This document shows, one piece after another, positions 40,086 through 45,772 of a stretch of 64,000 bases of DNA; position 1 is the first letter of the stretch; each line of letters opens with the position of its first letter. The DNA comes from Natrinema saccharevitans (GTDB taxonomy: Archaea; Halobacteriota; Halobacteria; Halobacteriales; Natrialbaceae). Location of the stretch: positions 2,976,001 through 3,040,000 of the forward strand of contig NZ_LWLN01000001.1 in NCBI RefSeq assembly GCF_001953745.1, read 5' to 3'. The notes under the pieces are model-generated. The model was not told where the DNA came from, made no database searches, and saw only the letters and a list, made by a program, of their open reading frames with translations. Position numbers and translations under genes: made by a program.

Positions 40086-41656
<1,571 letters not shown>

Positions 41657-41934: not shown

Positions 41935-43173
41935 ATGAGAAGTTTCCGGATCGGCTCGCTGTTTGACATCCCGATCAAGCTCGATCTCACGTTCTTGCTC
42001 GTGTTGCCGCTGTTTGCGTATTTGATCGGCACGCGGATCGAGCCCGTCTCAGAGATCCTCAACGAGGTGCTCGGGGCCGGGATCGACGTCGGAGCCATCA
42101 CCGGCGGGCCGATTCCGTGGCTACTCGGGCTGACGGCCGCCGTCGGCCTGTTCGTCGGCGTCGTCCTCCACGAACTGGGCCATTCGCTGACCGCACGGCG
42201 GTACGGGTTCCCGATCGATTCGATCACGCTCTGGTTGTTCGGCGGCATCGCCTCGTTCTCGGAGATGCCCGAAGACTGGCGACAGGAACTGAACATCGCT
42301 ATCGCGGGACCGATCGTTAGCATCCTCGTCGGCATCGGCTCCTACGGCCTCTTCGTTCTCACGCCCGAGATCCTCGGGGGAGCGTCGCCGGAACTGCTGG
42401 GCGGGACGCGGTTCGTCCTCGGCTATCTCGCGATTCTGAACGTCGCGCTCGCCGTCTTCAACATGCTCCCCGCGTTCCCGATGGACGGCGGCCGCGTACT
42501 GCGTGCACTGCTTGCCCGCGGCCGGCCCTACGCCCAAGCGACCCAGCAGGCCGCCAGCGTCGGGAAGCTGTTCGCGGTCTTCATGGGACTGTTCGGACTG
42601 TTCGCACTGAACATCATCCTCATCGGCGTCGCCTTCTTCGTCTTCATCGCCGCCTCGAGCGAGGCCCAGCAGGTGACGATGAAGGCGGCCTTTCAGGACG
42701 TCACCGTCGGCGACATCATGACGCCGGTCGAGGACCTCCACACGGTCGAGCCCGACACGACGGTCGCGGTGCTGATCGAACGGATGTTCCGGGAGCGACA
42801 CACCGGCTACCCGGTCGTCGAAGTCAGCGCGACCGGCGAGCGCCTCGTCGGACTCGTGACCCTGTCCGACGCCCGCGAGGTCGATCAGGTCGAGCGAGAG
42901 GCCTACACCGTCGCGGACGTGATGACGACCGACCTGCAGACGATCACCCCCGATTCGGACGCGATGACGGCGATCGAACGGATGCAAGAACACGGGATCG
43001 GCCGCCTCCTCGTCGTCGAGGTGCCCGACGCGGGCGGGTCGTTCGGCGAACCCCGGCCCGAAGACGGCGACCTCGTCGGGCTGATCTCGCGAAGCGACCT
43101 GATGACCGCCCTCGATATCGTCCAGCAAAGCGGCGCGGTCACGCCCTCGAACCGACCGCGAACCGCGGACTGA
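41935..43173 (+). CDS. Site-2-protease-like M50 membrane metalloprotease with CBS domains
   Basis: 412 residues. About six membrane segments in the first 240 residues. The zinc motif is His79-Glu80-Leu-Gly-His83 in VVLHELGHSLTARRYG, and the distal Asp is in NMLPAFPMDGGRVLRALL. Two CBS domains occupy about 255-395 (VGDIMTPVEDLHTVEPDTTV in part, VADVMTTDLQTITPDSDAM in part). It should cleave membrane-spanning substrates under control of a CBS-bound nucleotide. Substrate unknown. Confidence 0.94.
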   Translation: MRSFRIGSLFDIPIKLDLTFLLVLPLFAYLIGTRIEPVSEILNEVLGAGIDVGAITGGPIPWLLGLTAAVGLFVGVVLHELGHSLTARRYGFPIDSITLWLFGGIASFSEMPEDWRQELNIAIAGPIVSILVGIGSYGLFVLTPEILGGASPELLGGTRFVLGYLAILNVALAVFNMLPAFPMDGGRVLRALLARGRPYAQATQQAASVGKLFAVFMGLFGLFALNIILIGVAFFVFIAASSEAQQVTMKAAFQDVTVGDIMTPVEDLHTVEPDTTVAVLIERMFRERHTGYPVVEVSATGERLVGLVTLSDAREVDQVEREAYTVADVMTTDLQTITPDSDAMTAIERMQEHGIGRLLVVEVPDAGGSFGEPRPEDGDLVGLISRSDLMTALDIVQQSGAVTPSNRPRTAD

Positions 43174-43609
43174 GCGTCTCCGGTGATCGGACGCTGGAGA
43201 GATCAATACAGGTGATCGTCTCACCATAATTGCCGAGTACTATATCAACGTGTTATAGAATACGTCTTATGCAACCTAACTGATCTCCAATTCGCGTATA
43301 GGCCTATGATTTCGTCAGTCGTCGTTTTTGTGCAAGATCGGGACCGCGAATAGTGCCTGTTGAGGACCATTGTATGACACTCTCGAAGGCGATATGGCTG
43401 TTATCGTGTCCTCAAGTAGTATATAGAGTGTTTATTGGAGGTTGATACTATACCATAAATAACATCAATCCTATTAGGATAGCATAGGGGTACCAGAAGT
43501 TTTGTGAGACTATATCCCTCATGCCGGAAAAATAACAATATAGTCAGGTCCCGGACAGAACCACTTCCAACCCCCTGTATCTTACTCTCAAAAATTGTTT
43601 GTCAGGAGT
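43174..43609. other. AT-rich intergenic region, left flank of the small-peptide cassette
   Basis: 436 bp much richer in A and T than the flanking core genes, from about 43200 on. No credible gene or tRNA is seen. TTGAGGAC (43360-43367) and GTCCTCAA (43408-43415) form an 8-bp inverted pair 40 nt apart. AT-rich composition continues to about 44700, marking an island. Confidence 0.5.
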
Positions 43610-43927
43610 CTACTGGGAATGAACCGTGGGTGCAGTGTTCCCTAGTGGAATTCTTGATTTGAGTATGACGCCGCAGCCGTCATTCTGAACCTTGATCATA
43701 CCCCAATACGTAAGGATGATTCCGCCAATAACTGTAGCAACAGGACCAGCAAGCGATCCTGCGAGGATTCCCTTTTCAACTAGCACCCCATATACCGCTG
43801 CGGCTCCACCACCTGATGTGATTAATCCATCAAGATCACTAACTGTTCCGTCGCTAAGATAGAGAGTCATATTCCTATTTATTAGGAAACCATTATTGAT
43901 CTCACCCTTGTCCTCATTACAACCCAT
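43610..43927 (-). CDS. Glycine-rich hydrophobic peptide precursor (halocin-like candidate)
   Basis: 105 residues. A polar N-terminal 40 residues is followed by a Gly/Ala/Val-rich hydrophobic stretch of about 40 (GGGAAAVYGVLVEKGILAG, VATVIGGIILTYWG), then KVQNDGCGVILKSRIP. Only two Cys are present (positions 3 and about 87). The layout, small size, AT-rich setting and coupling to a Tat-signal gene resemble archaeal or bacterial antimicrobial peptide precursors. It is not halocin C8 by sequence. The ATG overlaps the stop of the upstream gene (TAATG), so translation is coupled. Function is inference. Confidence 0.5.
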   Translation of the reverse strand: MGCNEDKGEINNGFLINRNMTLYLSDGTVSDLDGLITSGGGAAAVYGVLVEKGILAGSLAGPVATVIGGIILTYWGMIKVQNDGCGVILKSRIPLGNTAPTVHSQ

Positions 43928-44238
43928 TACTCATCACCCTCCACCATTTCGTCAACACTGCTTTGGAGTTGAACAGTAACTTGGGGCTCTTTATTTAGTG
44001 GTTCTATTTCTGAGGTATGGTCTTTAGAGATCTCTAATTTGATATGACCATCTTCAATTGCCCTGTTGAAATCTTCGATAGCAGGCTTGAGGATTTCATA
44101 CTGGTGTCTTCCTACATTCTCACGGTCAAGTACAAACCGTCCGTCTTTCACTTTGATAGCACGATCTTGGTCGTCAGAACTGTCTGCCAAAACAGTACCA
44201 CTACTGCTTGCCAAAGCGCCGATAGAAACACCGGCCAT
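43927..44238 (-). CDS. Tat-signal secreted protein with missing canonical start
   Basis: 103 residues from the only ATG (44238), but this cuts off most of a Tat signal. In frame upstream the codons read SDTINRRRALE directly before MAGVSIGALASSSGTVLAD, giving a proper twin-arginine signal. Between the stop at 44315-44317 and 44238 there is no ATG, GTG or TTG in frame. A TATA-like ATATTTAATA (about 44301-44310) would start transcription near 44275-44280, at ATA or ATT codons, so a leaderless non-AUG start is possible. The mature part is polar and helical (YEILKPAIEDFNRAIEDGHI). Confidence 0.6.
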   Translation of the reverse strand: MAGVSIGALASSSGTVLADSSDDQDRAIKVKDGRFVLDRENVGRHQYEILKPAIEDFNRAIEDGHIKLEISKDHTSEIEPLNKEPQVTVQLQSSVDEMVEGDE

Positions 44239-44435
44239 TTCTAACGCTCTTCTCCTATTTATTGTATCGGATATACCAATTGGAAGTATGTTGGCACCCG
44301 TATTAAATATTTCTAACTAAAATTTTTATAATATTTTCTATAATACTATTGTATATAACTCCCATGGAGTTGTGCTATGATTCTAGTATTTTATTCCCCA
44401 TAAAATATTTACTGAAAGAGAGATAATAGAATAGT

Positions 44436-44627
44436 ATGGTAGAGAGAAAAATCCGGAACGTGAAGTCAGGTTTGTTGCTGATAATAGGGATAGTCCTATT
44501 ATCCAATGGGGTCTTAGGAATCCCACAACTCCCTCGCGAAGGGTGGTTTTTCATAGCTTTCGGACTTGTACTCTTCATTTCTGGAATCCACACAATATAT
44601 ACTAGAGAGAAAGACCCAGATTTTTGA
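44436..44627 (+). CDS. Small two-span membrane protein (possible immunity protein)
   Basis: 63 residues: MVERKIRNVKSG, then membrane segment LLLIIGIVLLSNGVLG, a short loop (IPQLPREGW) and a second segment FFIAFGLVLFISGIHTIY, then a charged tail (TREKDPDF). It is divergent from the secreted-peptide pair. Small basic multi-span proteins are common immunity proteins for bacteriocins, which is why the role is suggested. No family match is recognised. Confidence 0.55.
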   Translation: MVERKIRNVKSGLLLIIGIVLLSNGVLGIPQLPREGWFFIAFGLVLFISGIHTIYTREKDPDF

Positions 44628-44758
44628 TTTGTTTCCCAGCGTGAGTGGGGTCTAAATTATTTCCTACTCAGGAACACATAGCATTAGTTTCGACTATAGC
44701 GTAGCAGGAGGTACTGCTAACAAACAGTTTAACCGTCGGCGGGGCCGACGCTGTACCG

Positions 44759-45772
44759 ATGCCACCGGCCATCGAAACCGTCGATCTCGTGAAGGAATAT
44801 GGCGATCTCCGCGCTCTGCAGGAGCTGTCGCTGACCGTCGAGGAAGGCGAGTTCTTCGGCTTGCTCGGCCCCAACGGGGCGGGGAAGACGACGTTTATCA
44901 ACACGCTGGTCGGACTGGTCCGCAAGACCGGCGGCGACGCCCGGGTCTTCGGTCACGACGTCGAGGACGACTACCGACAGGCCCGCGACGCGATCGGGCT
45001 CGCGCCACAGGAGTTCAACGTCGATCGCTTCTTCCCCATCAAGGAGGTGCTGATGCACAAGGCCGGCTACCACGGAATTCCCGAGGACGAGGCCGCCGAC
45101 CGCGCCGACGAGGTTCTCAAACGCGTCGGGATCTACGACAAGCGAAACGAACGCTTCGACTGGCTCTCCGGCGGGATGAAACGCCGGCTCCTGCTCGCCC
45201 GCGCCCTCGTCACGGATCCCGACCTCCTCATTCTGGACGAGCCGACCGCCGGCGTCGACGTCCAGCTCCGCCACGACCTCTGGGAACTCGTCACCGAACT
45301 CAACGAGGAGGGGACGTCGATCCTGCTGACGACCCACTACATCGAGGAGGCCGAGCGCCTCTGTGATCGGGTCGCGATCATGAACGAGGGCCGGAAGGTG
45401 ACCGTCGCGACGCCGGACGAACTGAAAGAACGGGGCACCGACACCATCGCCGTACGCCTCGAGTCCGAGCCCTCGAGCGTTCCCGACCTCGGGGCCTACG
45501 CACACGAAACGACAGTGTCGGGCGACCGGCTCGAAGTCCGGGCCGACGACGGCGGGGCGACCGCGCCGCGACTGCTCAACGACCTCGAGGCGCGGGGCTT
45601 CGAGATCGCCGACCTCGAGATCACCCGGACCTCGCTCGAGGAGATCTTCGTCGATCTGACCCGCAGCGAGGACCGGACCGTCACGCGGTCGTCGGCCGAG
45701 AGCGCGGACGGGAGCGACGACGAGTCGTCGGCGAAACGCGAGCGGAAACGCAAACAGGAGGGGGTCGCCTGA
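44759..45772 (+). CDS. ABC-2 type exporter, ATP-binding subunit
   Basis: 337 residues. Walker A is GPNGAGKTT, signature LSGGMKRRLLLARAL, Walker B LLILDEPTAGVD, and H-loop TTHYIEEAE. The C-terminal 60 residues are a charged extension (SEDRTVTRSSAES, KRERKRKQEG). It should drive the permease whose ATG overlaps its stop. The type resembles NodI/DrrA multidrug or polysaccharide exporters. It lies beside the AT-rich cassette and could export a peptide, but the distance and GC-rich composition suggest it is core genome. Confidence 0.93.
   Translation: MPPAIETVDLVKEYGDLRALQELSLTVEEGEFFGLLGPNGAGKTTFINTLVGLVRKTGGDARVFGHDVEDDYRQARDAIGLAPQEFNVDRFFPIKEVLMHKAGYHGIPEDEAADRADEVLKRVGIYDKRNERFDWLSGGMKRRLLLARALVTDPDLLILDEPTAGVDVQLRHDLWELVTELNEEGTSILLTTHYIEEAERLCDRVAIMNEGRKVTVATPDELKERGTDTIAVRLESEPSSVPDLGAYAHETTVSGDRLEVRADDGGATAPRLLNDLEARGFEIADLEITRTSLEEIFVDLTRSEDRTVTRSSAESADGSDDESSAKRERKRKQEGVA

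Follow-up and report, generated by a model that had tools for sequence, protein, structure and literature searches.

A low-GC island in the haloarchaeon Natrinema saccharevitans, lying within the 64,000-nucleotide stretch of contig NZ_LWLN01000001.1 analysed here (positions 2,976,001 to 3,040,000; hereafter 'the window'), probably encodes a halocin-like secreted peptide system of the bacteriocin type. Two small open reading frames (ORFs) on the reverse strand, ORF A and ORF B, are, by alignment with homologues, the two halves of one precursor that is a single protein in most relatives; a divergent gene encodes a 63-amino-acid (aa) membrane protein that is a candidate immunity protein. The reading is carried by a family of precursors with predicted export through the twin-arginine translocation (Tat) pathway, and by the recurrence beside them of small membrane genes, as is typical of toxin-immunity pairs.

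A precursor split into two coupled genes

ORF A (43927..44274, minus strand) runs from an apparent ATA start (44274-44272) to a TAA stop (43929-43927) and encodes a Tat signal followed by a pro-domain; its translation opens ISDTINRRRALEMAGVSIGALASSSG..., a Tat-type signal with the motif RRRALEM at approximately 44256-44236. ORF B (43610..43927, minus strand) is a 105-aa predicted mature-peptide gene with cysteines at residues 3 and 85. A preliminary description of this DNA, made from the sequence without database searches, had singled out two coupled genes here, the second with a Gly/Ala/Val-rich hydrophobic core and an NDGCGV motif, and each of these points is confirmed. The core spans approximately residues 38-80 (43688..43816, minus strand) and the motif residues 82-87 (43667..43684, minus strand), with both glycines of the latter invariant in the family alignment. 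The two frames overlap by one base in TAATG (43929-43925), which forms part of a coupling junction, GGAGGGTGATGAGTAATG (43925..43942, minus strand), combining a Shine-Dalgarno-like sequence, the stop of ORF A and the start of ORF B.

When compared with L003, a fused homologue, ORF A aligns to the front half and ORF B to the back half, and ORF B starts at GCN, the point at which the Cys-containing C-terminal domain begins in fused homologues. The preliminary picture of a Tat-signal protein plus a separate Gly-rich peptide thus describes the two genes found here, but not most relatives, in which the same parts form one preproprotein. The split appears to be inherited and functional rather than a sequencing error, because two loci from another genus (L026 and L027) share both the split and the junction, the latter in the form GGAGGTGATGAATAATG, with a Shine-Dalgarno-like sequence before the ATG. 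Relative to L027, changes at codon positions 1/2/3 number 54/43/72 in ORF A and 44/26/67 in ORF B, and the third-position excess suggests that ORF B is under protein-level selection. Programmed frameshifting was considered in place of two genes and rejected: inspection by eye showed no classical slippery sequence, and the ATG of ORF B has a Shine-Dalgarno-like site ahead of it, so re-initiation is preferred. The window holds a rarer split variant, whose pro-domain can function only in trans, if at all. A different rearrangement is seen in Halostagnicola sp. A56 (L026/L114), where an apparent Rieske-type iron-sulphur domain, joined in frame to the end of ORF A, stands in place of the Tat half, with ORF B intact.

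The start of ORF A needs separate comment. The twin-arginine signal of the preliminary description is present in frame, but the ATG-initiated form of ORF A (44238-43927, 103 aa) excludes it, which leaves ATA as the apparent start. The copy in Natrinema mahii (L001) has ATG at this position (MPDTINRRR), and two of the three ORF A base differences between the window and N. mahii are in the start codon and the base that follows it. The first codons read ATA-TCC-GAT in the window, ATA-TCT-GAT in L027 and ATG-CCC-GAT in N. mahii; the ATA of the first two is either a non-canonical start that they share or the result of loss in parallel, and since ATA-TCY-GAT is common to the window and the distant L027, ATA may be a long-standing, functional start.

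A family of Tat preproproteins across haloarchaea

Protein and profile searches recovered homologues that are mostly single Tat preproproteins of 208-285 aa, distributed over many haloarchaeal genera. At the threshold used, the family is present in 33 of 392 haloarchaeal genomes and comprises 35 distinct loci; duplicates were dropped only if their last 60 residues were identical, so that these loci are not fully independent, and weak matches in unrelated long frames from a first single-protein search were left out. The fused layout consists of a twin-arginine signal, a pro-region and a C-terminal domain roughly 100 residues long, which starts near C(N/G)KN(D), continues through a Gly/Ala-rich hydrophobic part to N(D/E)GCGV and ends in ...(P/S)Q. 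The twin-arginine motif, and with it predicted export, is found in ORF A and in most of the fused homologues. Close to the C-terminus, most members have one or two hydrophobic segments, and some 20-30 residues follow the hydrophobic part, the final one usually Q. One locus (L073) is a very short frame in which a Tat-like motif directly precedes the C-terminal toxin part with no pro-region between them, either a mini-precursor or a deletion product.

The distribution of cysteines suggests a disulfide-closed extracellular domain, because they are nearly confined to the C-terminal part, where their number is usually even (22 of 28 members), the pro-regions being almost cysteine-free. Their commonest places are at the start of the C-terminal domain and in N(D/E)GCGV.

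Neither ORF A nor ORF B nor the family had a match better than chance in Pfam, PHROGs or PADLOC, and the members tested were likewise without a match in NCBIfam; in particular, the Gly-rich protein matched no known membrane family in the libraries searched, the kind of match that the preliminary description had said would count against its proposal. By these comparisons the family is nameless in those libraries and is neither halocin C8 nor geobacillin 26. Many predicted archaeal toxin families were reportedly described by Makarova and colleagues (mBio, 2019), and that collection may already include members of the present one.

Small membrane genes beside the precursors

A partner was defined as an ORF of 50-150 aa with at least two hydropathy spans, no more than 250 base pairs (bp) from the precursor. 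Such a gene, with two to four spans, adjoins the precursor at 24 of the 35 family loci, as against 4 of 77 control genes (2/34 in the window, including the 63-aa gene itself, and 2/43 elsewhere). The partners fall into several unrelated-looking types, and their type tracks the tree of the toxin domain: eight changes are required as against a shuffled mean of 16.2, and none of 200 shuffles was as low, on a tree whose bootstrap had not settled and in which the extraction of the L003 row was poor. In the window's clade, most toxins are paired with one four-span family (alignment A7). Within Natrinema this four-span family occurs at four loci, two beside toxins (G006 and N. mahii, G012), one beside a toxin remnant (G013) and one where no toxin was found (G022). 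Toxin-less four-span genes also occur in the wider order (L111, L125-L128), some with stop codons or broken frames, and resemble orphan immunity genes.

The divergent 63-residue protein with two hydrophobic segments is confirmed at 44436..44627 on the plus strand. Its relatives occupy eight loci in 125 genomes, and a toxin adjoins only both Natrinema copies of the island. In G001 a 53% identical relative stands alone at the same genomic site, while L027, the closest split relative, has an unrelated four-span protein in its place; a BLASTP comparison with the 60-aa partner of L063 gave no significant match. At the island site the 63-aa gene is found only in the three Natrinema genomes with an enlarged gap (see below) and not in the other 26, for which reason it may have come with the cassette. 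Its distribution is what would be expected of an orphaned immunity gene, or of a resident with no relation to the toxin.

A recently exchanged cassette in a variable gap

The island (43174..44758) lies between an M50/CBS gene (41935-43173) and an ABC ATPase gene (44759-45772). Its description as AT-rich within GC-rich DNA holds, at 41% GC over 43200-44700 compared with 64% for the whole window; at other loci, too, the toxin gene is often lower in GC than its surroundings. The gap between the M50/CBS and ABC genes is enlarged in 3 of 29 Natrinema genomes, and in the other 26 the island is absent and the two genes are only 78-242 bp apart.

Between the window and N. mahii (L001, in G012) the cassette genes differ at 1 of 317 bases in ORF B, 3 of 351 in ORF A and 1 of 192 in the 63-aa gene (0.3-0.9%), whereas divergence is 4-5% in the flanking genes and 5.7% in the DNA that separates ORF A from the 63-aa gene. 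As the cassette genes are so much less diverged than their flanks, the simplest reading of these alignments is that the cassette was exchanged horizontally after the two species parted. N. mahii itself holds at least four family members (L001, L020, L039 and a match on C5), one of them truncated, as well as two halocin C8-family genes.

The island has no long terminal repeats at its borders and no RNA family within it. Its genes had no relative in the viral contigs searched and one distant match in the plasmids searched, 32% identical, in Natrinema sp. SYSU A 869. A holin or prophage origin was rejected, as no phage families matched and the island is without an integrase. An IS605 OrfB/TnpB-type transposase gene (40182-41357) lies about 2 kb from the island, itself in a stretch of lowered GC.

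A proposed mode of action and the alternatives to it

If the island is a halocin-like system, ORF B would be made by translational coupling with ORF A, which may bind and shield it in the cytoplasm; the folded complex of the two would then leave through the Tat pathway, and an extracellular protease may free ORF B outside the cell. With its Gly/Ala-rich hydrophobic segment, which a disulfide between Cys3 and Cys85 probably closes, the mature peptide would insert into the membranes of competing haloarchaea, and the 63-aa protein would shield the producer. We offer the export step more tentatively than the system as a whole, and as somewhat less likely than not: in it a conserved two-gene variant of the fused precursor, possibly AUA-started, would supply its pro-domain in trans, a separate Tat protein carrying the signal-less peptide as a folded complex ('hitchhiker' export).

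Much of what the preliminary description proposed is borne out by the wider family, namely its Tat preproproteins, its excess of membrane partners and its halocin C8-like layout; the weaker part is the 63-aa protein. Likewise, co-occurrence elsewhere was found for the Tat and Gly-rich parts, usually fused, but the 63-aa protein has a toxin beside it at two of its eight loci. Several observations weigh against a halocin-like system as drawn above. The support comes from comparative genomics, and an AlphaFold model of ORF B from a four-sequence input was uninformative (mean predicted local distance difference test, pLDDT, 36.9). No in-frame ATG, GTG or TTG lies upstream of RRRALEM in ORF A; six of the eight loci of 63-aa relatives are without a toxin; and the clade's usual four-span partner was not found in the window's genome. 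One subgroup of the family (L033, L059, L061, L070 and L072) has no small membrane neighbour, and immunity, if any, is therefore arranged differently there. Most members of this subgroup end in SSQHCDC and have four cysteines.

The question of immunity is the most finely balanced, and we consider the chances that the 63-aa protein is the immunity protein to be roughly even. A rival that falls not far short of this holds that it is an unrelated resident and that immunity comes from the ORF A pro-domain, in the manner of HalI, the N-terminal part of the halocin C8 precursor, which confers immunity (PMC11509114). That precedent, the toxin-free loci and the solitary relative at the same site in G001 all favour a resident, whereas the repeated occurrence of small membrane partners at sibling loci and the confinement of the 63-aa gene, at this site, to the three enlarged-gap genomes speak for a partner.

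In our view the copy in the window is rather unlikely to be a decaying member of a halocin-like family, with a Tat gene that has lost its start codon and products that are no longer made. Decay would account for ATA where N. mahii has ATG and for the missing four-span partner, and other copies are indeed broken (L020 is truncated, L026 has its Tat part replaced and L003 has an apparent frameshift at its start). Against this, ATA-TCY-GAT is shared with the distant L027, neither ORF A nor ORF B has a stop or frameshift, and beyond the start only one further base in each differs from N. mahii. Because a halocin-like family could include a decayed copy and could rely on immunity of the HalI type, the likelihoods given here overlap.

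Least probable, and by our estimate quite improbable, is a non-toxic envelope protein, Tat-exported and C-terminally membrane-anchored, whose role, shared with a small membrane partner, would be adhesion, signalling or the maintenance of the surface: the hydrophobic segments near the C-terminus would suit it, but the residues that follow those segments are unlike a terminal anchor, the split form encodes the peptide as an ORF of its own, and loci that are patchy, fast-changing, often broken, low in GC and accompanied by several unrelated partner types fit a conflict system better.

Comparison with known antimicrobial systems

Few halocins are known at the gene level, and halocin C8 was the only one for which a model was found in the libraries searched. 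If real, the present family would be a second large halocin-like family, with a set of matched toxin/membrane-partner pairs, and its fused and split forms would offer a natural experiment on the role of the pro-domain and on Tat export of a passenger toxin.

Homology to geobacillin 26 and alicyclobacillin 24 (NF035925), which carry a Sec signal where the present family has a Tat signal, was rejected: the best match within the family (L028) had an E value of 0.055 and scored 13.3 bits where the cut-off is 40, and none of 384 haloarchaeal genomes scanned had a hit above that threshold, the matches resembling noise. The TIGR04449 model, which recognises HalC8, matches in 42 of 293 genomes (41 above cut-off) and found no match among the scanned members of the present family. 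The locus of HalC8 itself (L134) ends in residues identical to those of the HalC8 query sequence. The two families are similarly widespread (42/293 genomes for halocin C8 and 33/392 for the present family, in different samples). They differ in their cysteines, of which mature HalC8 has ten, ORF B two and the present family mostly two or four, and, by eye, in their pro-regions; the window form differs further in being split into two genes.

The likeness to halocin C8 is one of layout. Both HalC8 and HalH4 release active C-terminal fragments (PMC12893001); in HalH4 of Haloferax mediterranei the fragment is freed from a secreted precursor by halolysin (PMC12893001). ProC8 is a 283-aa Tat-exported precursor (PMC11509114), and a Tat preproprotein whose C-terminal peptide domain is Gly-rich is common to the halocin C8 family and ours. 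No small membrane gene was seen beside HalC8 itself, in line with its known HalI self-immunity. Three other loci of the halocin C8 family (L131-L133) have the same layout as ours, with a gene for a 61-aa two-span or 125-aa four-span protein 19-79 bp downstream, suggesting from gene order that membrane immunity proteins occur in that family too, besides self-immunity of the HalI type.
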